A DNA stretch of 41,847 nt, from positions 1 to 41,847 of IMG/VR virus record IMGVR_UViG_3300035670_000489; one strand, written 5' to 3'. Below the pieces are notes generated by a model that saw only the letters and a list, made by a program, of their open reading frames with translations, ran no database searches and was not told where the DNA came from. The translations under genes and the position numbers were made by a program. The DNA comes from a virus. This document shows positions 11,313 to 37,306 of the stretch, one piece after another. Numbering within the stretch: the stretch's first letter is position 1; each line of letters opens with the position of its first letter.

Positions 11313-13096
11313 TGACTTTAAGTAAAGACTTAGATAAAATAATTAATCAAGTCAAAGAGGGTAAGGTTAGTCTTAGTAATAAAGACCTTAAACTCATTAA
11401 TGAGATTGGAAGTAAGATTAAGAAAGCTAAGCAAGAAGAGTCTAACCGCCAAGAACTGTTAAAGAAGTTTGATGATGTTATTGAGTCTAATAAAGAATTA
11501 GTAGAAAACATCAAGAATATTAAGATTGATGTTGCTTCTGCTAAAGTTGATCCGATTGAAGTCAAGATACCAGAGATAAAGATACCGGACATTAAATTAC
11601 CTACAATTAATGTACCTAAAGTTGAGATACCAGAGATTATAATTCCTACTCCATTACCACCGATAGTAAATATCAATACTGATTTATTGATTGAGAACTT
11701 AGGTCTTATTAGAGAAGCGGTTGGAATGATTAATCTATCTCTTCCAACTACTGCTAAAAATCCTATTAGTGTGAGATTAAGTGATGGTGAGAAGTTTTAT
11801 AAAGCAGTTGGTTCATTAGTTTCGGCTGTATCAAACAATCTCATATTTAAAGACTCAACTAATATGGCTAAGGCTGCTTTAGTTGATGGTGATGGTCATC
11901 AGCAAGTAGATGTTTTATCTTTGCCTGATGTTAAAGTTAGCGAAATTCCTTTAGCCAATGGTGCAGCTACCGAAGACAAACAAGATGATTTAATTACTTT
12001 AAATACAAACCACATCTGTACCGATAACACTACTGACACTCCACTTGGTTCTGGTGAAACATTTACAGGAGTATGGCAAGATTGTCTTAATTATCAGGAA
12101 GTAAATATTTCAGTTGATGCAGATAAAAATAGTGCTACTAATGGATTGGTAATTCAATGGAGTGCTGATGGAACAAACATAGCCGATACTGATGTATTTA
12201 GTGTTTATGCTAATGCTGGTACTAACTATACTCCTAACCCTGCTTTTAGATATGTAAGAGTTGTTTATACAAATGGTTCTCAAGCTCAAACCAGATTTAG
12301 TTTAATGACAATACTCCGCAGAAGTGTAACTGGTGGTTCATTTCACCGAATAGACTCAACTTTAAAAGATGACTCTGACGCCAGATTAAACATTACAGTT
12401 CCCAAATTAAAGACTGCTGCTAATACTTATGTTTCCCAAACTGCTACTACGGCTGGTAATGCCAAGATGTCACTAGAAGAATTAGAGAGTGGTATTAGTG
12501 ATAATAGTAAATCTCAACTAAAAACTAGTTCTTATATGAAGACTGGTGATACGACTTTTCAAGTTCCAAGACTTGATATAGCAACTCACTCAATTCAAAC
12601 AATAGAATACGAACATCACGAAATCCATAGTGGTAGTCATTACTTTGTAGAGTCAAGTGTAGATTTACCCATAAATAATGTCTTTGATATGCAATTCACA
12701 ACTCCGAATACTGCCTCTTGGACTCATTTTACTTTTGATTTGGCTTGTGAGAGTGAAACAAATTGGTATATTTATGAGGGTGCTACTATAAACACCGCTG
12801 GAACTACAATAACGCCAGTAAATAATGATAGAAATTCAATTAAAACTTCTGGTAATACTGTGGCAGGAATTACTAATGGAAGTGTGGTTGATGCTAATGC
12901 TGATACTGCTACCGCTGGTGCTACCTTAATTGCTTCTGGAATTATTGGTGCTGGTAGGACAGGTGGTAATACTGAAAGAAACAGAGAGATAATTTTCAAA
13001 CAAAATACCATTTATTGTTTGAGAGCAGTTGCAGTTGCAGCTGGTTATATATCTTTTAATGCTCAATGGTATGAGCATACGAATAAAACTGCCTAA
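11312..13096 (+). CDS. Virion structural protein with Ile-Pro repeats and jelly-roll-like C-terminus
   Basis: The 594 residues show three regions. Residues 1-75 form a coiled coil (QELLKKFDDVIESNKELVENI). Residues 80-115 are an extended repeat of the type IPEIKIPDIKLPTINVPKVE. The rest is beta-rich. The middle (WSADGTN...RYVRVVY) and the far C-terminus (TASWTHFTFDLACESE..., ending NAQWYEHTNK) resemble widespread marine and groundwater phage virion proteins of unknown role. The protein may be a head decoration or head fibre. It is fused end-to-end with the portal gene by TAATG. Confidence 0.75.
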   Translation: MTLSKDLDKIINQVKEGKVSLSNKDLKLINEIGSKIKKAKQEESNRQELLKKFDDVIESNKELVENIKNIKIDVASAKVDPIEVKIPEIKIPDIKLPTINVPKVEIPEIIIPTPLPPIVNINTDLLIENLGLIREAVGMINLSLPTTAKNPISVRLSDGEKFYKAVGSLVSAVSNNLIFKDSTNMAKAALVDGDGHQQVDVLSLPDVKVSEIPLANGAATEDKQDDLITLNTNHICTDNTTDTPLGSGETFTGVWQDCLNYQEVNISVDADKNSATNGLVIQWSADGTNIADTDVFSVYANAGTNYTPNPAFRYVRVVYTNGSQAQTRFSLMTILRRSVTGGSFHRIDSTLKDDSDARLNITVPKLKTAANTYVSQTATTAGNAKMSLEELESGISDNSKSQLKTSSYMKTGDTTFQVPRLDIATHSIQTIEYEHHEIHSGSHYFVESSVDLPINNVFDMQFTTPNTASWTHFTFDLACESETNWYIYEGATINTAGTTITPVNNDRNSIKTSGNTVAGITNGSVVDANADTATAGATLIASGIIGAGRTGGNTERNREIIFKQNTIYCLRAVAVAAGYISFNAQWYEHTNKTA

Positions 13097-14470: not shown

Positions 14471-15583
14471 ATGTCAAGTGCATACGCTACAAAAATAGCC
14501 GAAGGGTTTTCACAAAAACTCATGAAAGAGTTTTATGATAGAAACCTTGTTGACGCTATCGTGAACCGAGATTATGAAGGAGAAATCAATCAAATCGGTT
14601 CTAAATTAAATATTTTAAATTTCTCCAGAATTTCTGAACAGATATACACCAAGGGTGGTCTTTCTGCTGATGATTTATATGAGAATAATTCTCAATTGAT
14701 CATTGATCAATATAAATCTTTCTACTGGAAAGAATACACCATTGATAAATGGTTATCCTATATCAAAAATCCTCATTCTACTATCGTAGCTCAAAAAGCT
14801 GATGAAAGATCAAAGAATGTTGATACTTTTGTGTTAGGTCTCTATGGTGATGTTGGTGCAGGTAATAGAGTTGGTACTGATTACACAACTGGTACGGTAA
14901 CCATCGCTGCTACTACTGGTGCAGTTACTGGTGATGGTACTACTTTTACCGCTGCTATGGTCGGCAAGCCTTTTAAGGCTCTCGGTCATTCAGTTTGGTA
15001 CAGAGTTAAATCCTATGCTTCAGCTACTTCTATCGTAATTGAAGATGATTTAGATGATACTACTAGTGCTTATACTGGTGGTGCTATCAATTCTGGTGCT
15101 ACCTACACTGTTCAAGCTGCTACTGCTGTTCAAATCACAACTTCCAATCTTTTAGATAAAGTTGCTGATCTTAAATTAGCTTTAGATAAAGCTGAATCTT
15201 ATGGGTACAATGCTGTTCCAGATTCTGATAGAGTATTAATTGTTCCACCTGAATTTGAGACTGTCTTAGTTAGGGCCTCTGGTATTGCTTTGCATGTTCC
15301 AGAAGTTTATAACGACCTAGTCCAAAAAGGTATGATTACCATGCTACAAGGATTTAAAGTTTTCAAATCCAATAGACTTACCGGTAATAATACCGATGGT
15401 TATCACTGCTTAGCTCTCCACCCAAATTGGTGTACATTTGCTGAAAAGCTCTTGGAAGCTGATATTGAAGAAGATTTAACTGGTGATTTCGGTTCTGCCT
15501 ACAAAGATTTATTCGTGTACGGTGCTAAAATCACTGATGCCCGAAGACACTTTGCTGCCGAAGGATTCTTCACTTTTGCTTAA
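14471..15583 (+). CDS. Major capsid protein (HK97 fold, P22-coat type) with inserted beta domain
   Basis: The 370-residue protein begins with the N-terminal helical arm and the E-loop-like part (DRDYEGEINQIGSKLNILNF...). It ends with a P-domain/A-domain portion (YGYNAVPDSDRVLIVPPEFETVLVRASG, ALHPNWCTFAEKLLEADIEED), typical of P22-like coat proteins. Residues about 130-215 form an inserted Gly/Thr/Ser-rich beta domain (TVTIAATTGAVTGDGTTFTA...WYRVKSYASATSIVIEDDL) of the kind also found in tail proteins; it probably sits on the capsid surface. It has the best Shine-Dalgarno site in the head region (AAGGAG), consistent with high expression. Confidence 0.9.
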   Translation: MSSAYATKIAEGFSQKLMKEFYDRNLVDAIVNRDYEGEINQIGSKLNILNFSRISEQIYTKGGLSADDLYENNSQLIIDQYKSFYWKEYTIDKWLSYIKNPHSTIVAQKADERSKNVDTFVLGLYGDVGAGNRVGTDYTTGTVTIAATTGAVTGDGTTFTAAMVGKPFKALGHSVWYRVKSYASATSIVIEDDLDDTTSAYTGGAINSGATYTVQAATAVQITTSNLLDKVADLKLALDKAESYGYNAVPDSDRVLIVPPEFETVLVRASGIALHVPEVYNDLVQKGMITMLQGFKVFKSNRLTGNNTDGYHCLALHPNWCTFAEKLLEADIEEDLTGDFGSAYKDLFVYGAKITDARRHFAAEGFFTFA

Positions 15584-15649: not shown

Positions 15650-16633
15650 ATGGCAACTTTTGAATTAAAACAAAATCTACCAACATCTACTCAAAACGAG
15701 ATAGATAGAATTGAAGCAATCGCTGAAGCCAATAGAACGGCCCAAGAAGTTGCTTTTTTATCAGCTAGAACTCCATATAGAACAAATAGAGTTCTTCGTT
15801 ACAATAATTCCCTAACTTCTACTCCAGCAAGTTCAAGTGATACTATCCTTGAAGCTGAAGGTAATACATTACCAACTGGATATAGTGGTTTTAAAGTCGG
15901 TGCAATCTTTAGAGATTTAGATAAAACAGGTATGGTTATGTATGTAAATACAGGAACTACTACCAGTGCTGTTTGGACTCAAATAAATGGAAATATATTA
16001 GTATCTTCTTCCGCATCTCTTAGCCCATCTGCTAGTGCTTCACCAAGTGCTTCTACTTCTCCATCTAGTTCAGCTTCACTATCTCCAAGTGCTTCTGCTA
16101 GTCCATCTAGTTCGGTTAGCCCAAGTCCTAGTGCATCTGAATCAAGAAGTCCGTCTGTTTCTGAATCCAGATCTCCATCTGTCTCTGCTTCCAGCTCTGA
16201 ATCAAGAAGTCCTAGTGCCTCTGAATCTCCAAGCTCTAGTGTTTCACTGTCTCCAAGTGTTAGCCCATCTGCTAGTGTTTCCCTTAGTCCAAGTGCTTCG
16301 GCTTCACCAAGTTCTAGTGAATCTGTTTCACCTTCTGCAAGTGCTTCACCAAGCTCTAGTGTTAGTTTGTCTCCATCTAGCTCGGCTTCTGCTTCACCAT
16401 CTACTACACCAAGTGCTTCTGAAAGCTGGTCTCCTAGCTCATCTGCTTCGGCTAGTTACTCACCATCTGGTTCAGTTAGTGCTTCTGTTAGTCTTAGCCC
16501 ATCCGTTTCTGAATCTAGATCTCCATCTTCTAGTTCTAGTCCATCGGCTTCTACAAGTCCTTCTAGTTCTACAAGCCCATCTAGTTCGGCTAGTTCGTCT
16601 AACAGCCCATCACCTAGCTTCCCAGATCTATAA
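15650..16633 (+). CDS. Virion-associated protein with a long Ser-Pro-Ser (mucin-like) tail
   Basis: The 327 residues divide into an N-terminal folded part (about 1-118, ending [23 protein letters not shown]...VWTQI) and a C-terminal low-complexity tract of about 200 residues made of Ser, Pro, Ala, Val, Glu, Thr ([13 protein letters not shown] style). All six Ser codons are used in mixture, so the repeat is kept at protein rather than DNA level. The N-terminus likely attaches to the capsid or tail and the tail extends outward. Serine-rich tracts of this type are O-glycosylation substrates in other systems. A glycosyltransferase gene follows directly. Confidence 0.8.
16004..16618 (+). repeat. 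Ser-Pro-Ser coding low-complexity tract 1
   Basis: Imperfect 6-base units encoding Ser/Pro/Ala tracts. Long open frames in the other phases here (for example a Leu/His/Val-rich one) are by-products of the repeat. Confidence 0.9.
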
Positions 16634-16638
16634 GTATA

Positions 16639-16668
16639 TTGACTGTATAGAGTTTCGGTGGATATCAT
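16639..16668 (+). promoter_or_regulatory. Leaderless-type promoter of the glycosyltransferase cassette
   Basis: TTGACT (16639-16644), 18 bases, TATCAT (16663-16668), then six bases to the ATG at 16675. Transcription would start at or next to the A of ATG. Confidence 0.65.
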
Positions 16669-16674
16669 ACTGTT

Positions 16675-17487
16675 ATGAAAGTAACAGTCATAATACCTGC
16701 TAGAAATGAACCATATTTAGGGAAAACAGTCCAAGACATTTTAAACAACGCCACCTCTGAAATAGAGGTGGTTTGCGTTTTAGACGGATATTGGCCTGAT
16801 GTTAAAGATATTAGTACCGATAATCGGGTTCGTTATTTACACTATCCAGAATCTAAGGGAATGAGAAATGGAATTAATGTAGCTGCTTCATTGGCTAAAG
16901 GTGAATACATAATGAAATGCGATGCTCACTGTATGTTCGCTAAAGGATTTGATGAAGAACTTATAAAGAGTTGTAAAGATAATTGGGTTGTAGTTCCAAG
17001 ACGTTATCCACTAGATGTGGAAAAGTGGAAAATAGAAGAAAGAACTGATAATAAATATCCGATTGATTATGAAGCTATTGATCCAGATGATTTACACGGT
17101 GTTGAATGGCGTTCCAGAAGAGATGAGAGAAAAGATATCATGATTGATGAAACCATGACTGCTCAAGGTAGTTGTTGGTTTATGAAGAAATCTCATTTTG
17201 AATTTATAGAAGGATTAGATGAAGCAAGTTATGGTTCATTCTTTTTAGAGTTCCAAGAGATATCTTTTAAAACTTGGTTATCCGGTGGAAAAGTAATGGT
17301 AAATAAGAATACTTGGTACGCCCATTATCATAAAGTAAAAGGTAGAGGATATTCATTAAGACCAGGTGAAAGAGATGCGTCAGTAGCCTTTATTAAGAAT
17401 TGGAAAGAGAACAAGGCTTGGCACAAACAAACAATCCCATTTGAAGATATGATTAATCGTTTTAAACCAATACCAGGATGGAAATAA
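16675..17487 (+). CDS. GT-A fold glycosyltransferase (GT2/GT27-like)
   Basis: The 270-residue protein has the nucleotide-sugar binding start VTVIIPARNEPYLGKTV, a DG dyad (CVLDGYWPDV) and a metal-binding DAH motif (CDAHC, 83-85). The acceptor-side part is QGSCWFMKKSHFEFI and YGSFFLEFQEISFKTWLSGG, ending in an HYHK segment. DXH rather than DXD is the metal motif of polypeptide GalNAc-transferases (GT27), which add the first sugar to Ser/Thr in mucin-like tracts. The neighbouring substrate-like repeat protein makes this role attractive, but donor and acceptor cannot be read from sequence. No membrane anchor, so it acts in the cytoplasm. It overlaps the next gene by ten bases. Confidence 0.85.
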   Translation: MKVTVIIPARNEPYLGKTVQDILNNATSEIEVVCVLDGYWPDVKDISTDNRVRYLHYPESKGMRNGINVAASLAKGEYIMKCDAHCMFAKGFDEELIKSCKDNWVVVPRRYPLDVEKWKIEERTDNKYPIDYEAIDPDDLHGVEWRSRRDERKDIMIDETMTAQGSCWFMKKSHFEFIEGLDEASYGSFFLEFQEISFKTWLSGGKVMVNKNTWYAHYHKVKGRGYSLRPGERDASVAFIKNWKENKAWHKQTIPFEDMINRFKPIPGWK

Positions 17488-18257
17488 CTAAAAATGACTT
17501 ATCTGTTGTGTATTACACCTGTAATCACTTAGAAAGAACTAACCCTTACTTTGTAACCAATACAAAGAAACAATTATTAAAAGCTATTGACGACTTGCCA
17601 TTGATAATCGTCTCCCATTTTCCAATGGAGAAAGATGATATTTTAATGCAAAGAGAAAATACAACTAATATTGTAGTTGGTGATTTAGGAAGACATCATC
17701 TAAATATATATAAACAGATACTTATTGGCTCAAAGGCTGCTAAAACCAAATGGGTGGCTATGGCTGAAGACGATATATTCTATTCCTACGAGCATTTTCA
17801 CACTTATTTACCACCTCACAATAAATTTGCCTACGATATGATGAAAGTATCCTTATTTACATGGACGAGACCTCCAGTCTATTCCTTCAGAACCAAAAGA
17901 AGAGTGGTCAATCATTTAATTGCCAAAAGAGACATGTTAGTTAGTGCTATGGAAGAGAGATTTAGGCGTGTTGACGAATTAAAGGCACAAGGAGTGCCAG
18001 AGGAACAGATATTATCAAAATTCGGTGATCCTGGCCGATACGAGGAACTCTTAGGTGTAACCAAAAGAGAGTCTGAAGAATTTTACACGACCTGCCCCGG
18101 TATTGTTTTAACACACCCCGATGCCTATGGGTATCTAAATCATGGGAAAAAGAAAAGACTAGGCGATCTTCGCATAGTTGAATTACAATACTGGGGTAAG
18201 GCCGAAGATATGTTAAAACTTTGGAATAAAGATTGGGAAAATTATGTCCACAACTGA
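17478..18257 (+). CDS. Second glycosyltransferase-like protein (EDD motif)
   Basis: The 259 residues start LSVVYYTCNHLERTNP and contain MAEDDIFYSYEHF (EDD at 97-99, a DXD-like metal site). The region around NIVVGDLGRHHLNIYKQILIG aligns by eye with the C-terminal half of the 21193-22869 protein. It lacks the N-terminal GT2 domain, which is supplied by the gene just upstream, so the two genes look like the split version of the fused enzyme further on. The acceptor and sugar are unknown. Cytoplasmic. Translation is coupled at both ends (ten- and 14-base overlaps). Confidence 0.75.
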   Translation: MEITKNDLSVVYYTCNHLERTNPYFVTNTKKQLLKAIDDLPLIIVSHFPMEKDDILMQRENTTNIVVGDLGRHHLNIYKQILIGSKAAKTKWVAMAEDDIFYSYEHFHTYLPPHNKFAYDMMKVSLFTWTRPPVYSFRTKRRVVNHLIAKRDMLVSAMEERFRRVDELKAQGVPEEQILSKFGDPGRYEELLGVTKRESEEFYTTCPGIVLTHPDAYGYLNHGKKKRLGDLRIVELQYWGKAEDMLKLWNKDWENYVHN

Positions 18258-18747
18258 TGTATTAAGTGGTTCTCATTTGCCTCTATTAATTAAACTTGTT
18301 AATTCAACTCCCGGACCAATACTTGAAATGGGAATGGGTTTAAATAGTACCCCGGTTTTACATTGGTTGTGTACCCATCAAAAGAGACAATTATTATCTC
18401 TTGAAAATGACGAGAAGTGGTTTGATTATGACAAGTATTACGAAAATGAATATCATCACATAGAATTGGTGAAAGATTGGGACAAAGTGGATATTTTTAG
18501 CAGATATTGGTCAATAGTGCTAATAGACCACAGACCAGCCTTGAGAAGAAGAATTGACGCTGTTAGATTAAAAGATCAAGCTGATTATATCCTTCTCCAC
18601 GATGCAGAACCGGAAATAAAAAGATTTTACGGATATCAGAGGATATTAAAGCATTTTTCTTATAACTATTTGTTTAAAGATTTAAAACCTAACACTTTGG
18701 TTTTAAGTAATACTAGGAGTTTAAAACACCTATTGACTTCAATATAA
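18244..18747 (+). CDS. Class I methyltransferase-like protein
   Basis: The 167 residues contain ILEMGMGLNSTPVLHW (a motif-I-like Gly-rich loop), LLSLENDEKWFDY (acidic residue after strand 2, binding the SAM ribose) and a late strand (YILLHDAEPEIKRFYG). This fits a small Rossmann methyltransferase, though the GxGxG loop is imperfect. In a glycan cassette it could cap sugars by O-methylation. Alternatively it may be a nucleotide-binding protein of another type. Confidence 0.6.
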   Translation: MSTTDVLSGSHLPLLIKLVNSTPGPILEMGMGLNSTPVLHWLCTHQKRQLLSLENDEKWFDYDKYYENEYHHIELVKDWDKVDIFSRYWSIVLIDHRPALRRRIDAVRLKDQADYILLHDAEPEIKRFYGYQRILKHFSYNYLFKDLKPNTLVLSNTRSLKHLLTSI

Positions 18748-18763
18748 AGTTGGTATGTATAAT
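18733..18763 (+). promoter_or_regulatory. Promoter of the RHH/Tad2-like pair
   Basis: TTGACT (18733-18738), a 19-base spacer and perfect TATAAT (18758-18763). The ATG at 18772 is eight bases on, so the mRNA has almost no leader. It sits at the very end of the preceding gene, making the next genes a separate unit. Confidence 0.7.
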
Positions 18764-18771
18764 GTACTTAT

Positions 18772-18942
18772 ATGGATAGAATAAACTTTTATATAACATC
18801 TGAACACCTTAGGTATTTAAAGCAATTAAATGATGGTTCTGTATCAGAACATATCAGAAAAGCTATATCAGAATATATTGAAAGAAAAGAAAAATTAAAA
18901 GTTACAAGTTCACCATCTAAATATGCCAAGTCCGGTTATTAA
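18772..18942 (+). CDS. Ribbon-helix-helix (Arc/CopG-like) DNA-binding protein
   Basis: ATG at 18772, TAA at 18940-18942, 56 residues. A short strand (INFYITS) is followed by two helices (EHLRYLKQL and SVSEHIRKAISEYIERKEKLK): the compact RHH fold, which binds operators as dimers through the strand pair. The C-terminus is a short basic tail. Its own promoter and the 20-base overlap with the next gene suggest it autoregulates the pair, as Aca-type regulators do in anti-defence operons; that analogy is inference. Confidence 0.7.
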   Translation: MDRINFYITSEHLRYLKQLNDGSVSEHIRKAISEYIERKEKLKVTSSPSKYAKSGY

Positions 18943-19153
18943 ACCAGAAAAAGTTACTATATCCTTTGGAGAAGCTCTTATAAAAGCTACCGAAGGAGAA
19001 AAATTTACTAAAATTGAATGGGAAGATACCAATATCTACGGATTTATCCGAGACGGTATTCTACATCTCCATAAAGAAGACGGAGACCATAAGTGGATTA
19101 TCAATGACGGAGATATTTTAGGCAACGATTATATATTAATTGAATCAAACTAA
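18923..19153 (+). CDS. Tad2/DUF2829-like small protein (possible anti-defence)
   Basis: The 76-residue product reads: SFGEALIKATEGEKFTKIEW at residues 14-33, a tight turn with IYGFIRDGILHLHKEDG, then W..NDGDILGNDYILIE. That order (FGEAL, a basic residue, W, a two-stranded hairpin, a W, then DIL..DW/Y..I) is the signature of the DUF2829 fold, whose best-known member, Tad2, sequesters the signalling nucleotide of Thoeris defence. The final W is replaced by Y here. Other DUF2829 proteins may bind other ligands, so anti-Thoeris activity is only a proposal. It is co-expressed with an RHH regulator. Confidence 0.6.
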   Translation: MPSPVIKPEKVTISFGEALIKATEGEKFTKIEWEDTNIYGFIRDGILHLHKEDGDHKWIINDGDILGNDYILIESN

Positions 19154-19154
19154 A

Positions 19155-20075
19155 ATGAAAACATTAGGAAAACCAGAATCAAATAGTGATGTTTTAAATA
19201 AACATCCAACAACTTTATTAATTGGTATCGGATGGGTAGGTCAATTTATTGGCAAATACTTTACTGAAGCCCATTATGTTACCGAAAGTGGTATTTTTAG
19301 AAAAGTATCTGATAATGAAGAAGTAGAACCATTGGAAAATTACACACTTGCTTTTATTAATGTTCCTACACCTATGTTACCTAGCGGACAATGTGATACG
19401 TCAATTGTAGAGGGTGTGGTGAAGCAATACGCACCAATTGTAGAGCATTTTTGTTGCAAATCTACTATTGAAATTGGTACTTGCGATAAGTTGTATTTAA
19501 GAGACGGAATTAGTATTTGTATGAGTCCAGAATATGTTGGCGAAACTTTAGGACACCCACTATTAGAACCATCAAGAGAAACTTTTGTAATATTAGGTGG
19601 ACCAAAGAAAACAACCAGAGTCTTTGCTGAAGCGTGGACCTTAGTAACTAATGCTAGAACAAAGATATATCAAACTAATGCTCGTACAGCCGAACTCTGT
19701 AAACTAATGGAAAATTCATTTATTGCTACTAAAGTAATGTTTTGTAATGAGTTCTTTGATTTAGCAGAACAGATTGGTGCTGATTATAATGAGTTAAGAG
19801 AATTATTTTTAGCTGATCCAAGAATGAGCCGAGATTTTACTTATGTGTATCGTAATAATAGAGGTTTTTCAGGTAAGTGTCTTCCAAAAGACTTAAATAA
19901 TTTAACTTACTTCTATCGCCATTTGCAAGGTCAAAACGCACCTTTAATTGAGTTTTTGCTCAAAAGAAATGCAGAATTAAGGAAAGATTATAAAAATTCA
20001 GTACCATTATTAGGAGACGAACTAAATGAAAGACCAAAAAAAACTGTGGGAAAAACTAGCAAAAGAAAATCCTAA
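19155..20075 (+). CDS. UDP-glucose/GDP-mannose 6-dehydrogenase family protein
   Basis: I start it at the ATG at 19155, directly after the previous stop; TTG at 19140 would overlap. The 306 residues hold the NAD Rossmann motif (GIGWVGQFIG), an NVPTP segment, STIEIGT, SPEYVGE, the helix NSFIATKVMFCNEF and the active-site loop GFSGKCLPKDLNNL, with the catalytic Cys in place. It would oxidise a nucleotide sugar to a uronic acid (for example UDP-glucuronate). It is shorter than the usual 390-440 residues, with the C-terminal UDP-binding domain truncated. It probably makes a sugar donor for the neighbouring transferases. The 3' end overlaps the next gene by 50 bases. Confidence 0.85.
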   Translation: MKTLGKPESNSDVLNKHPTTLLIGIGWVGQFIGKYFTEAHYVTESGIFRKVSDNEEVEPLENYTLAFINVPTPMLPSGQCDTSIVEGVVKQYAPIVEHFCCKSTIEIGTCDKLYLRDGISICMSPEYVGETLGHPLLEPSRETFVILGGPKKTTRVFAEAWTLVTNARTKIYQTNARTAELCKLMENSFIATKVMFCNEFFDLAEQIGADYNELRELFLADPRMSRDFTYVYRNNRGFSGKCLPKDLNNLTYFYRHLQGQNAPLIEFLLKRNAELRKDYKNSVPLLGDELNERPKKTVGKTSKRKS

Positions 20076-20634
20076 GTATTATATCTTTACAGACAAGGGA
20101 AAGAATATAAGCGAAAAAGACTTTATTGAGAGTGGGAAGAGAGATTATAAAAGGCTTATTAAAGACGATAAATTAGTTGATAAGAAAGGTATTGCTTTAG
20201 AGATTGGTTGTGGAATAGGTAGAATACTCCCATTTATGGCTAATGACTTTGATTGTGCCTTTGGAGTGGATATATCAAAGGAAATGATTGAACAAGCTAT
20301 TAAAAGAATAGGCCATATTAAAAATATTGGATTGATTGAAACTAATGGAACTTCAATCCCTTTAGTAGATGAGTCGGTAGATTTTATATTCTCTTATCTA
20401 GTATTCCAACACTTTAAAACTATTGAAATGGTTAGAAAGAATTTTAATGAGTCTTATCGTATATTAAAGAAAGGTGGATTGATGAAAGTTTTAGTAAGAA
20501 CAGATAAAGTAAGTCTTGATTCTTGGTGGGGTGGGGTGAAATGTGATGAAAAGATAGCTGAAGAATTTAAGTTTAAGGTAATCAAAAAACAAAAAGTTAA
20601 AAATTATGGTTTATGGCTATGGCTTACAAAATAA
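20026..20634 (+). CDS. SAM-dependent methyltransferase (Methyltransf_11 type)
   Basis: The 202 residues have motif I (ALEIGCGIGRI), the ribose-binding acidic residue (FGVDISKEMIEQA), motif IV (DESVDFIFSYLVFQHF) and motif VI (LKKGGLMKV). It is a complete class I enzyme. Position after a sugar dehydrogenase and near glycosyltransferases suggests small-molecule or sugar O-methylation. The substrate cannot be told. It ends just before an oppositely oriented HNH gene. Confidence 0.85.
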   Translation: MKDQKKLWEKLAKENPKYYIFTDKGKNISEKDFIESGKRDYKRLIKDDKLVDKKGIALEIGCGIGRILPFMANDFDCAFGVDISKEMIEQAIKRIGHIKNIGLIETNGTSIPLVDESVDFIFSYLVFQHFKTIEMVRKNFNESYRILKKGGLMKVLVRTDKVSLDSWWGGVKCDEKIAEEFKFKVIKKQKVKNYGLWLWLTK

Positions 20635-20671
20635 GTATATTAATTCCAAGTAGAAAATTACTTATGTTTTT
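20631..20671. terminator. Possible bidirectional terminator between convergent genes
   Basis: ATAAGTA (20631-20637) and TACTTAT (20659-20665) pair around a 21-base loop. A GTTTTT follows on the plus strand; on the minus strand the hairpin is followed by TTTG. It lies between the ends of the methyltransferase and the opposing HNH gene. The stem is AT-rich and weak. Confidence 0.4.
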
Positions 20672-21158
20672 CATAATATCTTTTTGTAGCTTCATTAGCT
20701 TTTTTAAGCCAATATTCTCTTTTAGGTCCTTCCATTCTTTTTTTATGTCTAATAGAATCACAAATTTTACAAAATTTTCTAGGTTTATTAATATCGTAAG
20801 GTGGAAGTTTATGTCCATTTTTACAATGAGTTTTGCGAGAGTTTTGAGCCGAAGGTCCATCTCCTCTAATAACATTTACTTTTTGAATAACAAGCTCAAT
20901 ATGATCAGGATTACAACACGCTTTGTTTCTACACAAATGGTCAAGTTGAAAAATCTTTCCCCTAGGTATTGGTCCTTTAATATAAGCATAGACAATGCGA
21001 TGGGTTCGTTCTCTTCTGTGATTATAATATCCTTGAGCATACCCTTGATAGTCTTTACCACCGATCCAATTCCAACAACCAGTTTTTTTATCAATCTTAA
21101 TTTTTTTAAAAATCCTTTTTCTTTCTTTTGGAGAAAGATTAACAATAAGATATTCCAT
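20658..21158 (-). CDS. Homing-type HNH endonuclease, inserted on the opposite strand
   Basis: From ATG 21156-21158 the product is about 166 residues: CWNWIGGKDYQGYAQG at about 27-42, THRIVYAYIKGPIPRG, then the HNH core LDHLCRNKACCNPDHIELV (catalytic His and zinc Cys), the conserved N..RG after it, and a second zinc knuckle CKNGH...CKIC. This is the pattern of phage-borne homing HNH nucleases (HNH_3 with a C-terminal DNA-binding part). It lies backwards between two plus-strand glycan genes with its own extended -10 promoter, the mark of a selfish insertion. The 21200 start is less likely. Confidence 0.9.
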   Translation of the reverse strand: MEYLIVNLSPKERKRIFKKIKIDKKTGCWNWIGGKDYQGYAQGYYNHRRERTHRIVYAYIKGPIPRGKIFQLDHLCRNKACCNPDHIELVIQKVNVIRGDGPSAQNSRKTHCKNGHKLPPYDINKPRKFCKICDSIRHKKRMEGPKREYWLKKANEATKRYYEKHK

Positions 21159-21164
21159 AAAATT

Positions 21165-21173
21165 ATTATACCA
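21165..21173 (-). promoter_or_regulatory. Extended -10 promoter of the HNH gene, leaderless
   Basis: TGG-TATAAT on the minus strand; the hexamer (21170-21165) ends six bases before the ATG at 21158. No -35. The transferred gene uses the same start geometry as resident genes. Confidence 0.7.
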
Positions 21174-21192
21174 CAATATGAGGAATTTAAAT

Positions 21193-22869
21193 ATGAACAA
21201 GTATAGTTTATCTATTCTAGTGCCTTCAAGAAACGAGGAATTTTTATCTCAAACAGTAAATAATATTCTTGAAAATATTGAGAGTGATACTGAAATAATT
21301 GTAGGATTAGATGGAAAATGGTCTGATCCACCAGTTATAGACGATCCAAGAGTAACTATTCTATATTATGGTGAGTCTGTGGGTCAGCGTGGGATGACAA
21401 ACCAATTATGTAAACTATCAAAAGCTAAATATGTAATGAAAGTTGATGCTCATTGTGCTTTTGATAAAGGATTTGATAGAAAAATGTTGGAAGCATTTGA
21501 AAAGACCGGTGATAATGTAACAATGTGTCCTCTAATGAGAAATTTACATGCTTTTGATTGGGTATGTAAGAAATGTGGAGAAAAACGATATCAAGGTAGA
21601 AGTGGGGTATGTGAAAAGTGTGGTGGAGAAACTTTTAAAGATATTAAGTGGATTGGTAAAGAAAGTCCTCAAAGCACTTCATATAGATTTGATACTACTT
21701 TACATTTTCAATACTTTAATGAATTTAAAAAACGACCAGAAGGGAAATTGGATTTAAGTGAGTCTTTTAGTCTTCAAGGAAGTTGTTTTATGCTTACCAG
21801 AGAAAAATACTGGGAGTTAGACATATCAGAAGAAACATTTGGTAGCTGGGGACAGCAAGGAACGGAAGTAGCATGTAAAACATGGTTAAGTGGCGGGAGA
21901 GTCATTATTAATCAAACTACTTGGTATGCACACATGTTTAGAACCCAGGGTGGCGATTTTGGTTTTCCATATCCTTTAAGCGGTAAACAAGTAGATGAAG
22001 CAAGAAAATATAGTCGGGCTTTATTTATGGAAAATACTTGGCCAAAACAAATTCATCCGTTAAGTTGGTTAATAGATAAATTTAAACCTATACCAGAATG
22101 GCACGATGAAAAAGGAAAAGAGGTTTTAGACTATGTAAATAATCGTGGTAGGGAATGGTATGATAAAAAAGGTATCAAAATACTATCAAAAGGTATCATT
22201 TATTATACTGATAATCAATTAAAGGTAAAGATTGCTAAGAATGTCCAAAGACAATTATTAAAATCTGGATTACCAATAGTGAGTTCTAGTTTAAAACCTA
22301 TGGATTTTGGTAAAAATATATGGATGAAAGGCTTTCAAAGAGGGTATTTAACGATGTTTAAACAGATTTTAATTGCACTAGAACATCTTAAAACAGACAT
22401 CGTATATTTTTGCGAACATGATGTTTTATATCCAAAATCTCATTTTGATTTTACTCCTACGAATAAAGATACTTGGTATTACAATAAAAATGTTTGGAAG
22501 GTGAATTATGAGACCGGTCATGCAATAAAAGTTGATGATTGTCGTCAAACAAGTGGTATTTGTGTTTATAGAGATACTGCCCTGAAACATTATAGAAAAC
22601 GAATTGAATTATTAAAACAATATAAAGGTGATGATTTTAATGCTTATGTTAGAGCTATGGGTTTTGAACCAGGTACTCATAATAGAAAAGAAAGAGTAGA
22701 TGATGCTAAAAGTGAACCATGGGAAAGTAGTGAACCTCTAGTAGATATTAGACATGATAATAATTTAACTTCTACTCGCTGGAAACCAGAACAGTTTAGG
22801 AATAAAAAATTTACAGAAGGTTGGGTTGAAACGGACAATATTCCACATTGGAATAGAATAAAATTCTAA
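21193..22869 (+). CDS. Bifunctional glycosyltransferase: GT2/GT27-like plus second GT-like domain
   Basis: The start at 21193 is supported by GAGGA eight bases upstream; 21178 is possible. The 558-residue product has an N-terminal GT-A domain (LSILVPSRNEEFLSQTV, DAHC at 85-88, QGSCFMLTREKYWEL, CKTWLSGGRV) closely like the 16675 protein. Inside it is a zinc-ribbon insert (Cys 125, 128, 140, 143). The C-terminal half (IIYYTDNQLK..., FKQILIALEHL, YFCEHDVLYPKSHF) matches the 17478 protein. The fused pair could add two sugars in sequence. The zinc ribbon has no counterpart in the split version and may position the acceptor. A repeat-protein gene follows. Confidence 0.85.
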   Translation: MNKYSLSILVPSRNEEFLSQTVNNILENIESDTEIIVGLDGKWSDPPVIDDPRVTILYYGESVGQRGMTNQLCKLSKAKYVMKVDAHCAFDKGFDRKMLEAFEKTGDNVTMCPLMRNLHAFDWVCKKCGEKRYQGRSGVCEKCGGETFKDIKWIGKESPQSTSYRFDTTLHFQYFNEFKKRPEGKLDLSESFSLQGSCFMLTREKYWELDISEETFGSWGQQGTEVACKTWLSGGRVIINQTTWYAHMFRTQGGDFGFPYPLSGKQVDEARKYSRALFMENTWPKQIHPLSWLIDKFKPIPEWHDEKGKEVLDYVNNRGREWYDKKGIKILSKGIIYYTDNQLKVKIAKNVQRQLLKSGLPIVSSSLKPMDFGKNIWMKGFQRGYLTMFKQILIALEHLKTDIVYFCEHDVLYPKSHFDFTPTNKDTWYYNKNVWKVNYETGHAIKVDDCRQTSGICVYRDTALKHYRKRIELLKQYKGDDFNAYVRAMGFEPGTHNRKERVDDAKSEPWESSEPLVDIRHDNNLTSTRWKPEQFRNKKFTEGWVETDNIPHWNRIKF

Positions 22870-22877
22870 AGATTTTA

Positions 22878-22907
22878 TTGAGATAAGCTAGTTTCATTCG
22901 GTATAGT
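22878..22907 (+). promoter_or_regulatory. Leaderless-type promoter of the large repeat protein
   Basis: TTGAGA (22878-22883), 18 bases, TATAGT (22902-22907), six bases, then ATG at 22914. Exact leaderless geometry. Confidence 0.75.
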
Positions 22908-22913
22908 TTGAGT

Positions 22914-25778
22914 ATGGCTAGTTATCTCAAACTTGATGGTTCAACTTATATATATATTCTTCAGGAAAACGGGGATAAAATTTTACTGGAAGAGGTCTCA
23001 TCAGAATCGCTATCAATTTCTTTAAGTCCTTCGGCTTCTCAAAGTCCGAGTAGTTCAATATCATTGTCTCCGTCTCTCTCTCCAAGTGTCAGTGAGTCAG
23101 TCAGTGAGTCCGCTAGTATTTCATTATCACCTTCTGCAAGTATTAGTTTAAGTCCAAGTGCATCAGAATCTCTATCAGAATCAGTATCAGAGAGCGCATC
23201 GGAGAGTGTTTCGGAATCATTGTCGGAGTCTTCAAGCCAATCACCTTCCAGTTCCGAATCAATTAGTGAATCAGCCTCTATAAGCTTATCCCCATCGGCA
23301 AGTGAAAGTTTGTCTATTTCGCTATCTCCTTCTGTTAGTGTATCTGCTTCGGAATCACCCTCATCATCTACTTCATTTTCACCATCCGCAAGTGAGTCAT
23401 TATCCGAATCCGTTTCTGAATCATTATCACCTTCCTTGAGTGAAAGTCTTTCTCCTAGTGCATCTCAAAGCCCAAGTTCTTCGGAATCTGTTAGTGAAAG
23501 TGCTAGCGAGTCTTTAAGTGAATCCGTGTCAGAATCCTTATCTCCATCTTTAAGTCTTTCTTTAAGTCCATCTGCAAGTCAAAGTCCTTCTAGTTCTGAA
23601 AGTGTTTCAGAATCTGCTTCAATTTCTCTTTCTCCTTCGGTAAGCGAATCTTTATCTATATCACTAAGTCCATCTGTTAGTGAGAGTGCGAGTGAAAGTC
23701 CAAGTAGTTCAATTTCACTTTCTCCAAGTCTTTCACCTTCCGTATCAGAATCAGTTTCTGAATCTTTGAGTGAATCTGTATCAGAATCGTTATCTCCATC
23801 TGCATCGCAATCTCCAAGTAGTTCGGAAAGCTTATCAATTAGTTTGTCTCCTAGTTTATCCATTAGTTTAAGCCCTTCAGTATCAGTTTCGGCTTCCGAA
23901 TCACCTTCCTCTTCAGAAAGTTTGAGTCCTAGCTTATCAGAGTCTTTATCAGAAAGTGTTTCCGAATCGGCATCAATTTCATTATCGCCATCTTCTAGTA
24001 TATCCGCTTCGGAATCTCCATCTAGTTCTATCTCGTTAAGTCCATCTCTAAGCGAATCGGTTAGTGAAAGTTTAAGTGAATCTGTTTCAGTTTCAGCATC
24101 AGAGAGCCCGTCTAGTTCTGAATCTTTATCTCCAAGCGTATCAGAAAGTGTCAGCGAATCTTTGAGTATTAGTTTAAGTCCATCTGTATCTGAATCCGCT
24201 TCTATTTCTCTTTCTCCTAGCTCATCTCCCAGTCCAAGTGTTGGATCAGAATCCGCTAGTATTTCATTATCCGAATCCCTTTCTCCTAGTGTTAGTGAAA
24301 GTGCATCTCCATCGGCAAGTGAATCTCCTAGTTCAAGTGAGAGTTTGAGTCCGTCAGTATCTGAATCAGTATCAGAAAGTTTATCTCCCTCTTTAAGTCC
24401 TTCGGCCTCAATCTCTTTATCAGAATCTATTTCCGAATCTGTTAGTGAATCAGTTAGTGAATCCTTGTCTCCAAGTGTATCTGAATCGGTTTCGGAATCA
24501 TTATCCGAGTCTTTATCTCCTAGTTTATCTGAATCACTATCATTAAGTTTAAGTCCTAGTCTATCTGAATCATTATCAGAGTCTTTAAGCGAATCAATAT
24601 CAGAAAGTGCTTCTGTAAGTCCTAGTAGTTCTATTTCTGCTAGTCAATCTCCAAGTGCTAGTGAATCCGTGTCAGAAAGTTTATCTATTTCTCTAAGTCC
24701 TTCGGCCTCAATCTCTTTATCACCAAGTGTTAGCGAATCTCTATCAGAATCCGTTAGTATTAGTGCTTCAGTTAGCCCAAGTTCTTCAATAAGTGCCTCT
24801 ATTAGTCCGTCTCAAGCTGCTGGATCAGGATTATTCTCAAAAGAAGTTACTTTATATCTGCCGAACAATAACAATAATTTAGCCATTCTTTATGGTGAAG
24901 ATGATGAAATAGCCGTTAGCGAAGATGATGGTATAAGAGTTGGATTGATATATACTGATACATACAGTTCTAGTCCTAGTATTTCAGTATCCTCGTCTCC
25001 GTCTTTATCTGTCAGTCCTTCTTTATCAGAATCTGTCTCTCCTTCTAGTTCAGCATCTCCTAGTATAGAAGTAGGTAATTGTTTGCTTCAAGAAAACGGA
25101 GATGAATTACTACAAGAGATAGGTGATTGTATTTTATTAGAATCAGGGTGGGTGGAAAGTGCTTCTCCGTCTTTGTCTCCGTCATCTTCTCCAAGTCTTT
25201 CACAAAGTCCATCATCTAGTATTTCATTATCTCCTAGCCCTTCTAATGGATATGAGTACAATTTAGTCCATCAATATAGAGTAGAAAATAATACTGACAA
25301 AGATTCAATTAAATTACTTGTCAATTTACAATCTTCTCTTACAACATCAAGCTCTCCTGTCTGTTTGCAAATTTGGAATAATACTATCGGAACTTGGGAA
25401 ACTTTAGATACTGAAAGTTCTGCCCTTGCCGATACTGATTTTAATTTAACTGGCGAGATAACTTCTAATGTAACTAATTACTACGATAATAATGAGATAG
25501 CATTTAGGGTTTATCAGGGTGCTATGGTTGATGGTCAATCTTTATCCGTTGATTGGGTTAGAACTTGCTTCATCATAGTTTATGAGGATAAATACGCTAG
25601 TAAAACTACAACTTATGGAAATAAATACAGTGATTTGACAACCAGTTATTCTAGTAAGTACAAATCCAAGACTACTACTTATGGTGATAAATTTGCTGAT
25701 AAAACTACTAATTATTCAGATAAATTCTCTGATAAAACTACTACTTATGAAGATAAGTATAGAAAAAAACATTGTTAA
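22914..25778 (+). CDS. Giant Ser-Pro-Ser repeat (mucin-like) protein, 954 residues
   Basis: I start at the ATG at 22914 (TTG at 22908 would overlap the promoter spacing). A 28-residue head (YIYILQENGDKILLEE) is followed by about 600 residues of Ser/Pro/Glu/Val/Leu/Ile repeat (SESLSISLSPSASQSPSSS). A short folded module follows (GLFSKEVTLYLPNNNNNLAI), more SPS, a second LLQENGDELLQEIGD motif like the head, another SPS run, then a beta-rich domain (YNLVHQYRVENNTDKDSIKLLV). The C-terminus carries 11-residue YxxKxxxKTTT repeats. It looks like a long flexible virion fibre. Tract 2 has far more Glu than tract 1. Candidate substrate of the flanking glycosyltransferases. Confidence 0.8.
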   Translation: MASYLKLDGSTYIYILQENGDKILLEEVSSESLSISLSPSASQSPSSSISLSPSLSPSVSESVSESASISLSPSASISLSPSASESLSESVSESASESVSESLSESSSQSPSSSESISESASISLSPSASESLSISLSPSVSVSASESPSSSTSFSPSASESLSESVSESLSPSLSESLSPSASQSPSSSESVSESASESLSESVSESLSPSLSLSLSPSASQSPSSSESVSESASISLSPSVSESLSISLSPSVSESASESPSSSISLSPSLSPSVSESVSESLSESVSESLSPSASQSPSSSESLSISLSPSLSISLSPSVSVSASESPSSSESLSPSLSESLSESVSESASISLSPSSSISASESPSSSISLSPSLSESVSESLSESVSVSASESPSSSESLSPSVSESVSESLSISLSPSVSESASISLSPSSSPSPSVGSESASISLSESLSPSVSESASPSASESPSSSESLSPSVSESVSESLSPSLSPSASISLSESISESVSESVSESLSPSVSESVSESLSESLSPSLSESLSLSLSPSLSESLSESLSESISESASVSPSSSISASQSPSASESVSESLSISLSPSASISLSPSVSESLSESVSISASVSPSSSISASISPSQAAGSGLFSKEVTLYLPNNNNNLAILYGEDDEIAVSEDDGIRVGLIYTDTYSSSPSISVSSSPSLSVSPSLSESVSPSSSASPSIEVGNCLLQENGDELLQEIGDCILLESGWVESASPSLSPSSSPSLSQSPSSSISLSPSPSNGYEYNLVHQYRVENNTDKDSIKLLVNLQSSLTTSSSPVCLQIWNNTIGTWETLDTESSALADTDFNLTGEITSNVTNYYDNNEIAFRVYQGAMVDGQSLSVDWVRTCFIIVYEDKYASKTTTYGNKYSDLTTSYSSKYKSKTTTYGDKFADKTTNYSDKFSDKTTTYEDKYRKKHC
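22998..24812 (+). repeat. Ser-Pro-Ser/Glu coding low-complexity tract 2
   Basis: About 1.8 kb of imperfect 6-base units encoding (S-x)n with SPS, SES, SAS, SLS and SIS steps. Ser codons TCN and AGY alternate freely, so exact DNA repeats are short. Copy number is likely to differ between related phages. Confidence 0.9.
25587..25770 (+). repeat. 11-residue tandem repeats at the C-terminus
   Basis: About six units of the form K-Y/F-x-x-K-T-T-T-Y-x-D (for example KYASKTTTYGN, KFADKTTNYSD). Regular Tyr/Phe and Thr positions suggest a beta-solenoid or fibrous stack rather than a coil. The unit identity is visible at both protein and DNA level. Confidence 0.8.
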
Positions 25779-25801
25779 TAAATAGTTTAATAATTTAAAA
25801 T
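25772..25801 (+). promoter_or_regulatory. Leaderless-type promoter
   Basis: TTGTTA (25772-25777), 18 bases, TAAAAT (25796-25801), six bases, ATG at 25808. The spacer starts ATAAATAG, as in the promoter at 29531. Confidence 0.55.
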
Positions 25802-25807
25802 AAAGCT

Positions 25808-27424
25808 ATGAGTGGAATACATGTTATAGATAGTTTTCGTGGCGGTATCAGTGATTTTTCCGATAAGGGGATAGCTGGTTCATTTAAGCATGGTGCAAAT
25901 TTGGATATAAGAAAACAGGTTGATAGTTTAACGTGTGGTCAAGCTTTAATAGACGAGGGATTATTTGGTTCTCGTTCTCCAAGTGCTTCTGAAAGCCCAT
26001 CATCTTCGGTTTCTTATTCTCCATCAGCTAGTTTAAGCCCTTCTGTATCAGTGTCGGCTTCACCAAGTCCAACTCCTTCTTATTCTTTTTCTTCATCTCC
26101 ATCAAGATCAGTTAGTGCTTCTCCAAGTCCAACTGGTAGTTATTCTCCAAGTCCTTCTCCTTCTCCTAGTGGTAGTCAAACAAGTGTATTTAAAGATTTA
26201 ATTCGTTTCTTTGTTAAAGCTAGTGATGGTTATACTTATGGATTTGGAAATACTGGTTATATATATCGTAGAGATTTAGATGGTTTTTGGATGCAAGTTT
26301 ATAAGGATTCTAATGGTCAAATTAAAGGTGCTTGTGAAAAACCATCATCAGGCGGTCTTACTTATATTTATTGGGCTACTGATAAGGTATTAAAAAGAAA
26401 ACTAATACCAGGTAGAAATGATTGGAACGATCCGACCGTTGTTGCTTCTAATTTAAACTCTTGTGATTATCATACTATGGTTCAAGTTGGTGGTGCTTTA
26501 TATATTGCTAATAAATCGTGGTTAGCTTTAGTTGGATATGATGATTCTTATACTAATGAAGCTCTTGATTTAGTACCAGGAAATGAAGCCAAAACCCTAG
26601 TAGAAAGAGATGGAAATGTAATTATTGGAACTTTTAGAACTTCTGATCCAGACAGGGGTGTAAACGGTGCAGTTGATACTGAAGTACCATTATCTCTAGT
26701 TGGAGACGGTGAAATATTTTATGCCGACATGGCTAGTAAAACACCTATTAAAGTTCTCCCTGGTGGTGGTAAGTGTAATCCTGGTGGAGTATGTAATGAA
26801 ATTGAACAGGTTAATTTTTTCCAATGGGAACAAAATTCTCTATCTTGGGATGATAAGCAATCAGTAGGTAATATGGCTTTGTTTGCTATTTATAATGCTG
26901 ATGTTGGTTATGGTGGTATTTATTCTTATGGTAGAAAAAATAAGAACCATTCCTTTGTGCTTAATTTAGACCAGCAATTTGATGCTGATGAATTAGGTGC
27001 TATTGCTAATGTAAATGGAACGACTATTGTAAGTTATAGAGATGGAACTGATTTTGGCGTTAAAGCTGTTGACCCAGATAATAAAGCAACTGGTACTTAT
27101 ATTGGACTTGATTTTAAATCTCCAGTTAAATCAGATAAAGGTCTTAGGCAACCAATGGACATTACTAACTGGAAATATGTTGAAATTTACTGTTCTCCAT
27201 TACCTACTGGAACATCTATTGAGTTCTGGTACAAAACAGATAAAACAGGATCATTTGTACAAGCCTATTTAGAAGATGGTACTACTTCTTTTGATAATAC
27301 AGGCGAAAAAAAGTGTACTTTCTTAATCGGTGCTGATGCCCAGATATTTGAACCAAAAATAGTTCTAAATCCAAATGCTAATGTTTCACCAGAAATATAT
27401 AGAATTAGAACTTATTTTGATTAA
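25808..27424 (+). CDS. Tail-associated protein with an internal Ser-Pro-Ser tract
   Basis: The 538 residues start MSGIHVIDSFRGGISDFSDKG, a start typical of phage tail proteins. An SPS tract occupies about residues 55-122 and a large beta-rich region follows (YTYGFGNTGYIYRRD, TYIYWATDKVLKRK, ALYIANKSWLALVGYD), which reads like propeller blades of a tail-tip or stabilising protein. The SPS tract interrupts two folded parts, so it was probably inserted as a surface linker. A C-terminal beta sandwich is likely (IEFWYKTDKTGSF...EIYRIRTYF). Confidence 0.75.
   Translation: MSGIHVIDSFRGGISDFSDKGIAGSFKHGANLDIRKQVDSLTCGQALIDEGLFGSRSPSASESPSSSVSYSPSASLSPSVSVSASPSPTPSYSFSSSPSRSVSASPSPTGSYSPSPSPSPSGSQTSVFKDLIRFFVKASDGYTYGFGNTGYIYRRDLDGFWMQVYKDSNGQIKGACEKPSSGGLTYIYWATDKVLKRKLIPGRNDWNDPTVVASNLNSCDYHTMVQVGGALYIANKSWLALVGYDDSYTNEALDLVPGNEAKTLVERDGNVIIGTFRTSDPDRGVNGAVDTEVPLSLVGDGEIFYADMASKTPIKVLPGGGKCNPGGVCNEIEQVNFFQWEQNSLSWDDKQSVGNMALFAIYNADVGYGGIYSYGRKNKNHSFVLNLDQQFDADELGAIANVNGTTIVSYRDGTDFGVKAVDPDNKATGTYIGLDFKSPVKSDKGLRQPMDITNWKYVEIYCSPLPTGTSIEFWYKTDKTGSFVQAYLEDGTTSFDNTGEKKCTFLIGADAQIFEPKIVLNPNANVSPEIYRIRTYFD
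25969..26178 (+). repeat. Ser-Pro-Ser coding low-complexity tract 3
   Basis: About 210 bases of the same repeat style ([23 protein letters not shown]), here with added Tyr/Thr/Phe/Gly. Third independent occurrence in the genome. Confidence 0.9.
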
Positions 27425-36118: not shown

Positions 36119-37306
36119 ATGGCTGACGCAAAGATTACAGAATTGACCGAACTTACAGCAGTAGATCCAAGTGATTTACTTGCTATTGTAGATGATCCTT
36201 CGGGAACACCAGTTACTAAAAAAGCTACTGTTAATAATATTGCCGATTCTATTGCTGCGGATTCTAATACTCCAGTAATGAACTCCTCTATGGCTCGTCA
36301 AGCAATAATAAATGGAAACTTTGATGTATGGCAGAGAGGAACTACATCAACCAATCCAGTAACAGCTACATTTTTAGCAGATAGATGGAATGTTTCTTTT
36401 AATGCAGATAGTGGAACGCCACCAACTAACATTGTTCATACTAGACAAGCTCTTACAGCGGGTGATATTGCTAATGCTTTTTATCATTACAGAATAGCCC
36501 CAGATGGTGCTGGTTCAAGTTATGGTGCTAATTCACACTACACACTAAGACAAAAAATAGAGTTTGGTACAAGGTTTTTGTGTGGACTTAATAAAACAGT
36601 TACGGTGTCATTTTATGCTAGATCATCTATTACAAATAAAAAACTTGGAATACTAGCAATACAGCACTATGGAACTGGAGGTAGCCCTTCAACACTTGAG
36701 TATATCAATGGTGAAAATTGGACACTTACCTCTAGCTGGACAAAGTATACTCACACTTTTACCACCAATACACTAGCTAGCAAGACATTTGGAACAGCCA
36801 ATGACGACTCTCTGTATATTGATTTTGCAGTACAGTGGGGATCAACAAGAGATGCCTATTATGGTGCTGATGGTGCAGAAGATTTTGTGGGTTCAGGAAC
36901 AATAGACATAGCTCAAGTCCAACTCTGTGCTGGTGATGTAGCTCTACCTTTTATGCCTAAGAGTTATGAAGAAGAATTAAGAGCTTGTCAGAGGTATTAT
37001 CAAAAATCATATTTATATGAAACAGCTGTTGGAACTAATACACAAGTTGGAGCATTTCATCAATATATTGGAGATGCTACGACTGCAACATTAGCAACAA
37101 CTGTATATTATCCAGTTGAAATAAGAACTGCATCTACCCCAGTAATTTATGATTTTGCTGGTACTTCTGGTAAGGTTTATAAAGGTGCAGCTGGTAAAAC
37201 TGGAACAGTTACAAACTTAACTACTAAAACTTTTTATTGTTACACAACGGATTCTACTTCTGCAGTTGAATGGGGATTTCATTGGGTAGTTGATTCTGAA
37301 CTATAA
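36119..37306 (+). CDS. Tail fibre/spike with carbohydrate-binding-like domain
   Basis: The 395 residues start ADAKITELTELTAVDPSDLLAIVDDPSGTP, an N-terminal module shared by many phage fibres that attach to the tail. The middle (NGNFDVWQRG, DRWNVSF...) is a beta-sandwich of the type common in fibres that bind carbohydrate. It ends with FMPKSYEEELRACQRYYQKS and a C-terminal beta cap. Probable receptor-binding protein. It starts the operon that ends with lysis genes. Confidence 0.85.
   Translation: MADAKITELTELTAVDPSDLLAIVDDPSGTPVTKKATVNNIADSIAADSNTPVMNSSMARQAIINGNFDVWQRGTTSTNPVTATFLADRWNVSFNADSGTPPTNIVHTRQALTAGDIANAFYHYRIAPDGAGSSYGANSHYTLRQKIEFGTRFLCGLNKTVTVSFYARSSITNKKLGILAIQHYGTGGSPSTLEYINGENWTLTSSWTKYTHTFTTNTLASKTFGTANDDSLYIDFAVQWGSTRDAYYGADGAEDFVGSGTIDIAQVQLCAGDVALPFMPKSYEEELRACQRYYQKSYLYETAVGTNTQVGAFHQYIGDATTATLATTVYYPVEIRTASTPVIYDFAGTSGKVYKGAAGKTGTVTNLTTKTFYCYTTDSTSAVEWGFHWVVDSEL

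Follow-up and report, generated by a model that had tools for sequence, protein, structure and literature searches.

Organisation of the region downstream of the capsid gene

The window analysed here is an IMG/VR phage record of 41.8 kb, taken at its full length. Its late genes run from the terminase via the capsid gene into a region of serine-rich tracts and sugar enzymes, with the following features:

8286, terminase (PF04466)
14471..15583, + strand, major capsid protein, the anchor for comparisons (phrog_267 major head protein, 8.6e-23; 163 relatives in IMG/VR)
15650..16633, + strand, SPS1, the capsid-adjacent protein by its position after the capsid gene: an N-terminal domain of about 118 aa and a C-terminal mucin-like tract
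16004..16621, + strand, (S-x)n tract of SPS1
16675..17487, + strand, GTa, stand-alone GT27-like glycosyltransferase with D83-x-H85 and H217 (PF00535, 5e-19; DAH motif)
17478..18257, + strand, GTb, putative second transferase family, by homology to the C-terminal half of GTab
18244..18747, + strand, conserved cassette protein, in 24/32 tract-bearing (SPS+) phages and 0 tract-free (SPS-) phages
18923-19153, small protein of 76 aa, in 24/32 tract phages and in 0 tract-free relatives
19155..20075, + strand, nucleotide-sugar (UDP-glucose type) dehydrogenase, short form (PF00984, 2.9e-19; TIGR03026, 3.6e-33)
20026..20634, + strand, SAM-dependent methyltransferase (PF08241, 7.2e-19)
20658-21200, - strand, HNH endonuclease gene between the methyltransferase and GTab (PF13392)
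21193..22869, + strand, GTab, a GT27-like domain, with D85-x-H87, H247, and an insert resembling a zinc ribbon, in fusion with a GTb-like one
22908..25778, + strand, SPS2, protein of virion type; long tracts plus a C-terminal domain that SPS- phages also have
23001..24815, + strand, main (S-x)n tract of SPS2, with a single break at 24243-24245
24966-25067 and 25158-25247, + strand, two short extra tracts of SPS2
25808..27424, + strand, conserved late protein, probably of the tail, one loop of which carries an inserted tract
25970..26179, + strand, (S-x)n loop insertion in the 25808 protein, with two small breaks

The SPS1 gene starts 67 bases 3′ of the capsid gene, and SPS2 lies after the last glycosyltransferase (GT). 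Between the two are found GTa, GTb, the 18244 protein, the dehydrogenase, the methyltransferase, the HNH gene on the opposite strand, and GTab. A + strand ORF at 20613-21206, which overlaps the HNH gene, is probably spurious.

The initial annotation had described three proteins with (S-x)n tracts, and these were confirmed as three late proteins with strictly alternating serines. The tracts are rich in Pro, Ala, Leu, and Val at the x positions, are far beyond chance, and are kept in relatives, in which their length varies widely. Every second residue of the SPS1 tract is Ser in 99% of cases, with all six Ser codons in use. The same annotation took the mixed Ser codons as a sign that selection acts on the protein, a view that is borne out and can now be quantified. 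Across five pairs of SPS1 homologues, the tract Ser codons differ by 193 synonymous versus 7 non-synonymous changes, and the x-position codons of the same tracts by 133 versus 83, where a neutral model expects a non-synonymous share of about 69% for Ser and 67% for x. The synonymous excess could be inflated by the way the repeats are aligned; two gap-free pairs nevertheless agree, with 34 versus 2 at Ser and 25 versus 12 at x. The tract serines are under strong purifying selection.

An SPS1-type protein, which combines the N-terminal domain of SPS1 with a tract, lies directly 3′ of the capsid gene in nearly all tract-bearing relatives. The N-terminal domain is modelled by AF2 with a pLDDT of 92.6, and a search of PDB and BFVD found no match to its fold. 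In four loci (L136, L140, L142, and L144), this domain carries other, fibre-like extensions in place of the tract. One relative (L134) is without SPS1; it has a tract in another protein and has kept the GTs. The other two scaffolds have tract-free homologues in the relative L045: one of 282 residues for the C-terminal part of SPS2 (L045:12457-13305) and one of 470 residues for the 25808 protein. Homologues of the latter protein were found via its L045 homologue, and those of SPS- phages have 0–8 residues at the site of tract insertion; the window reads QALIDEG-[tract]-VFKDLIRFFVKASDG at this site and L045 reads QALKEEGSG-VFTDLIRWFVKCSDG. Tract-bearing and tract-free phages have late proteins in common, among them the portal-like, capsid, and 25808-type ones. 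Tracts are added to three proteins: the capsid-adjacent one, a late protein of several domains, and a conserved protein of tail type, which has its tract in a loop. The position of their genes and their homology lead us to infer that these proteins are located in the virion.

Some further features of these proteins deserve mention. The C-terminal 80 or so codons of SPS2 consist of short K-x-T-T-Y-x-D-K-Y/F-like repeats, and tract-free L045 has them too. In L045, the capsid gene is followed by a gene (11211-12284) for a fibre-like protein, which matches 36119-37306 of the window at its N-terminus and is similar to an S74-type chaperone at its C-terminus; it seems that this position can be taken by either SPS1 or a fibre. 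The capsid protein has an inserted domain at residues ~136-232 that also matches the tail/tail-fibre families phrog_24607 and phrog_2712, and this domain is the sole matching piece in one of the loci (G067/L240).

The transferases and the accompanying enzymes

The PF00535 match of GTa confirms its initial assignment as a GT-A enzyme with a DAH metal motif. A likeness to GT27, at first only hinted at by the DXH motif, turned out to be much stronger, since the sequence profile and the predicted fold both rank GalNAc-transferases (GalNAc-Ts) first in PDB. When a profile of 27 GTab sequences was compared with all PDB sequences, the 14 best matches were polypeptide GalNAc-transferases, led by GalNAc-T1 at 9.5e-13, and the matches extend over the two halves of the catalytic domain, the one with DxH and the C-terminal one. 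GTa alone also finds GalNAc-transferases first. The structure prediction proposed as a check was run for GTab: the AF2 model has a pLDDT of 90.4, and its 48 best Foldseek matches in PDB are GalNAc-Ts (5e-15). As controls, two GT2 enzymes of the ordinary kind were taken from Patescibacteria genomes; for these, dolichol-phosphate mannose synthase comes first.

The metal site is conserved in the same sense. The metal ligands of GALNT1 are Asp209, His211, and His344 (PMC4202792), with which D85, H87, and H247 of GTab align. These three residues are invariant in the 27 fused enzymes, and the metal-ligand residues are 98–100% conserved in 109 stand-alone ones. The WGGEN sugar-contact motif is not matched; it aligns as WGxxG, with E225 retained two residues on, and two sugar-contact positions differ. 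No Pfam lectin match, such as a ricin-type domain would give, is found in GTab, whose C-terminal half is the GTb domain. Because the WGGEN motif and the lectin domain are not conserved, we name the enzymes GT27-like. Since PDB contains few bacterial relatives, an unsolved bacterial family could lie between the GT27-like enzymes and the GalNAc-Ts. Neither GTa nor GTab has a sequence match in 50,697 phage records.

The catalytic domain of GTab carries, at residues ~122-144, a zinc-ribbon-like insert (CKKCG...CEKCGG) that is present in most homologues and, to our knowledge, absent from GalNAc-Ts. In one record (G068, L246), GTab is interrupted by several stop codons, suggesting that this cassette is decaying or poorly assembled.

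GTab had been read as a fused two-domain version of its neighbours, and it is a true fusion of 16675-like and 17478-like domains. As for GTb itself, its description as GT-like holds to the extent that it is homologous to the C-terminal half of GTab, which AF2 folds confidently; it has no family match of its own in Pfam, NCBIfam, or PDB. The dehydrogenase, taken at the outset for a UDP-sugar enzyme, is indeed a nucleotide-sugar dehydrogenase by PF00984 and TIGR03026. It is only 306 aa long and shows no match to the C-terminal UDP-binding domain. Its GFSGKCLPKD motif, which includes the usual catalytic Cys, is present. An acidic sugar in the glycan is plausible given a dehydrogenase in 25/32 tract phages, albeit one without a recognisable C-terminal domain. 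The cassette had also been credited with two methyltransferases. The one at 20026 stands; the 18244 protein has no Pfam or PDB family match, even as a 25-member alignment.

Joint distribution of tracts and enzymes

Relatives were collected by their capsid protein in two IMG/VR scans, which gave about 145 loci. Loci whose sequence continues for 2.5 kb or more past the capsid gene were dereplicated at 97% capsid identity. Of the resulting 70, 55 carry both tracts and GTs, 15 carry neither, and 0 carry only one. Relatives with tracts and no GT, which would have spoken against the link, are thus absent from this set. A PF00535 search of whole records found no match in the 17 tract-free ones, several of which are 35–37 kb long. 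Five apparent exceptions were rejected. Three records with a tract and no GT (G035, G066, and G070) are contigs of 10–19 kb, one of which (G035) stops about 150 bases past the tract; two with GTs and no tract (G023 and G028) end inside the GT cluster, before the expected second tract gene.

For 32 tract phages the sequence extends 6 kb or more downstream. GTa is present in 31 of them, the dehydrogenase in 25, a member of the 18244 family in 24, GTab as a fusion in at least 18, and the methyltransferase in 5. None of the cassette enzymes, including the dehydrogenase, was found in tract-free phages. On the capsid tree, tracts and GTs each need three changes, on the same branches, and at least two of these joint changes are forced by well-supported branches; as only 2–3 of them are independent, they are too few for a sign test. 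L045/L159 and L054 are nested in the tract-bearing clade and lost, or never had, both tracts and GTs. In these genome sequences the tracts occur only together with the enzyme cassette, which establishes a genetic co-dependence of the two.

A sample free of capsid and GT bias was obtained by searching IMG/VR for the DNA pattern of S-P-S-x-S-P-S-x-S-P-S. It yielded eight records with real long tracts, six of which have a GT above the Pfam cut-off; the two without are fragments of 10–13 kb. Control records with chance matches to the pattern have a GT in 0/24 cases (Fisher p = 3e-5). Of 19 tract/GT records, the GTab profile matches 17, and it matches none of 30 others; 11 of the 19 came via GTa, so that the independent sample is the eight found by pattern. 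The capsid family is absent from the searched pattern/GT records except G022, G053, and G057, with G067 matching in the inserted domain only. These other lineages have 2–7 cassette genes in common with the window group and, in most pairs, 0–3 other genes. The window and L045 show the reverse, with nine non-cassette genes in common and zero cassette genes. Tract and cassette therefore act as one transferable module.

At close range, 84,980 prokaryote species genomes contain a single relative, which has tract and GTs and lies in a MAG of Ca. Woesebacteria. When 380 Patescibacteria genomes were searched more widely, this brought up a tract-free relative (L304-L306; contig C1 of G467, about 31–53 kb) integrated in a 149-kb contig, with an integrase at one edge and cellular genes on both sides; it has neither tracts nor cassette. 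GTab homologues occur in six of these genomes. Of the five that are new, three have tracts beside the GTs, and the other two hits are on contigs of 8–16 kb. The phages, a large uncultured group, likely infect the tiny Patescibacteria, an assignment to be read with the possibility of binning errors and from the only phylum sampled in this way.

A putative mucin-type coat and its known parallels

We consider it probable, judging from sequence, that the region is a phage-encoded protein O-glycosylation module making mucin-like virion glycoproteins. That the phage's own transferases would glycosylate the Ser-rich virion tracts, as the initial annotation proposed, is supported by the agreement of tracts and GTs in 70/70 relatives and by the likeness to GalNAc-Ts. 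In the infected cell, the soluble GT27-like enzymes (GTa and the N-terminal half of GTab) would bind UDP-sugar and metal via the D-x-H...H triad and place the first sugar on tract serines in the cytosol. GTb-type domains and other GTs would then lengthen the glycan, whose later sugars may be supplied or modified by the nucleotide-sugar dehydrogenase and methyltransferases. Glycosylation would take place before or during particle assembly, so that the particle would bear extended, sugar-coated bristles on head and tail, through which it would adhere to the host or to the matrix around it, or which would shield it.

The tracts might instead be unmodified flexible spacers or adhesive bristles, with a GT cassette that remodels host surface polysaccharide in the style of serotype conversion, the two travelling jointly since both serve host interaction. 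Phage GTs that alter host surfaces are known (PMC12619734), and the integrated SPS- relative adjoins genes of cell-surface type in its bacterial contig. Yet this relative has neither tracts nor cassette, the cassette of the tract phages sits among late virion genes, the GTs are lost exactly with the tracts and shared exactly with them, and the enzymes are most like protein O-GalNAc-transferases. We regard this alternative as unlikely. That the GTs glycosylate phage DNA bases (hypermodification), the tracts being unrelated, can draw on virus-encoded DNA-modifying GTs (Pyle 2024, as cited in PMC12619734). We rejected it as highly improbable, for a thymidylate-synthase-type hydroxymethylase is found in 0/32 records and the GTs are linked to the tracts and not to replication genes.

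The wide variation of tract length between relatives would fit selfish or neutral repeat expansions that lack a function and hitchhike near GTs. Strong purifying selection on the every-second-residue Ser, with mixed Ser codons, speaks against this, as does the recurrence of tracts on three different scaffolds and in unrelated phages; the codon data led us to reject pure hitchhiking, which we likewise hold to be highly improbable. A glycosylated virion protein module remains the best explanation. A bolder formulation is that Patescibacteria phages have true mucin-type O-glycosylation, with GT27-like polypeptide transferases outside eukaryotes, purpose-built virion Ser-Pro tracts that are densely glycosylated, and a tract-plus-enzyme module that moves between unrelated phage lineages; on this we find the chances evenly balanced.

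Self-made mucin-like particle coats would change the view of adsorption and shielding for bacteria that are among the most abundant and the hardest to access. From phages, one would obtain soluble polypeptide O-glycosyltransferases for Ser-Pro tracts, of use for mucins made in bacteria, and these enzymes would bear on the question of whether eukaryotes invented mucin-type glycosylation. By the tract-plus-enzyme rule, uncharacterised GTs of viral metagenomes can also be assigned to virion proteins. We found no report in the open literature of serine-proline tracts in Patescibacteria phages or of GT27 enzymes in phages.

Polypeptide GalNAc-transferases initiate mucin O-glycosylation on Ser/Thr. 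With these enzymes (CAZy GT27; mucin-type O-glycosylation in animals and Toxoplasma), the phage enzymes have in common the GT-A fold and D-x-H metal motif, the third metal ligand His in an H-x-F-R motif, and a W-G...E...W..GG segment, and the acceptors of GT27, Ser/Thr in Pro-rich tracts, are similar to the predicted acceptors here. They differ from GT27 in that the GalNAc-contacting E and N of WGGEN are replaced, in that GTab contains a zinc-ribbon-like insert, is fused to a GTb domain, and is without a ricin-type lectin domain, and in being phage-encoded.

The serine-rich repeat (SRR) adhesins with GtfA/GtfB are a known parallel (PMC6973325). The SRR glycoproteins of Gram-positives (GspB, Fap1, PsrP, and SRRP) also have (Ser-x)n repeats and dedicated linked transferases, which are cytosolic and accompanied by variable extra GTs, as in the phage cassette. 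The phage substrates, in contrast, would be particle proteins. SPS1 ends in SPSFPDL, without an LPXTG anchor. No cassette protein has a Pfam or NCBIfam match to GtfA/GtfB-type enzymes.

Phage virion glycosylation is itself already known, having been described in mycobacteriophages Che8, Corndog, and Myrna (Freeman 2023, as cited in PMC12363180 and PMC12619734). As these citing papers present it, phage-encoded GTs act on virion proteins, and the same is proposed here, where phage-encoded GTs are likewise genetically tied to virion proteins. Neither the mycobacteriophage nor the SRR systems are homologous to the phage cassette as far as tested. In the mycobacteriophages, by the same accounts, the glycans are on capsid and tail-tube subunits, whereas the present phages have long dedicated mucin tracts, known from their sequence. 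What is new here is that the GT-A enzymes are GT27-like, by sequence profile and predicted fold, and it is in its mucin tracts with such enzymes that this system differs from the virion glycosylation already known.
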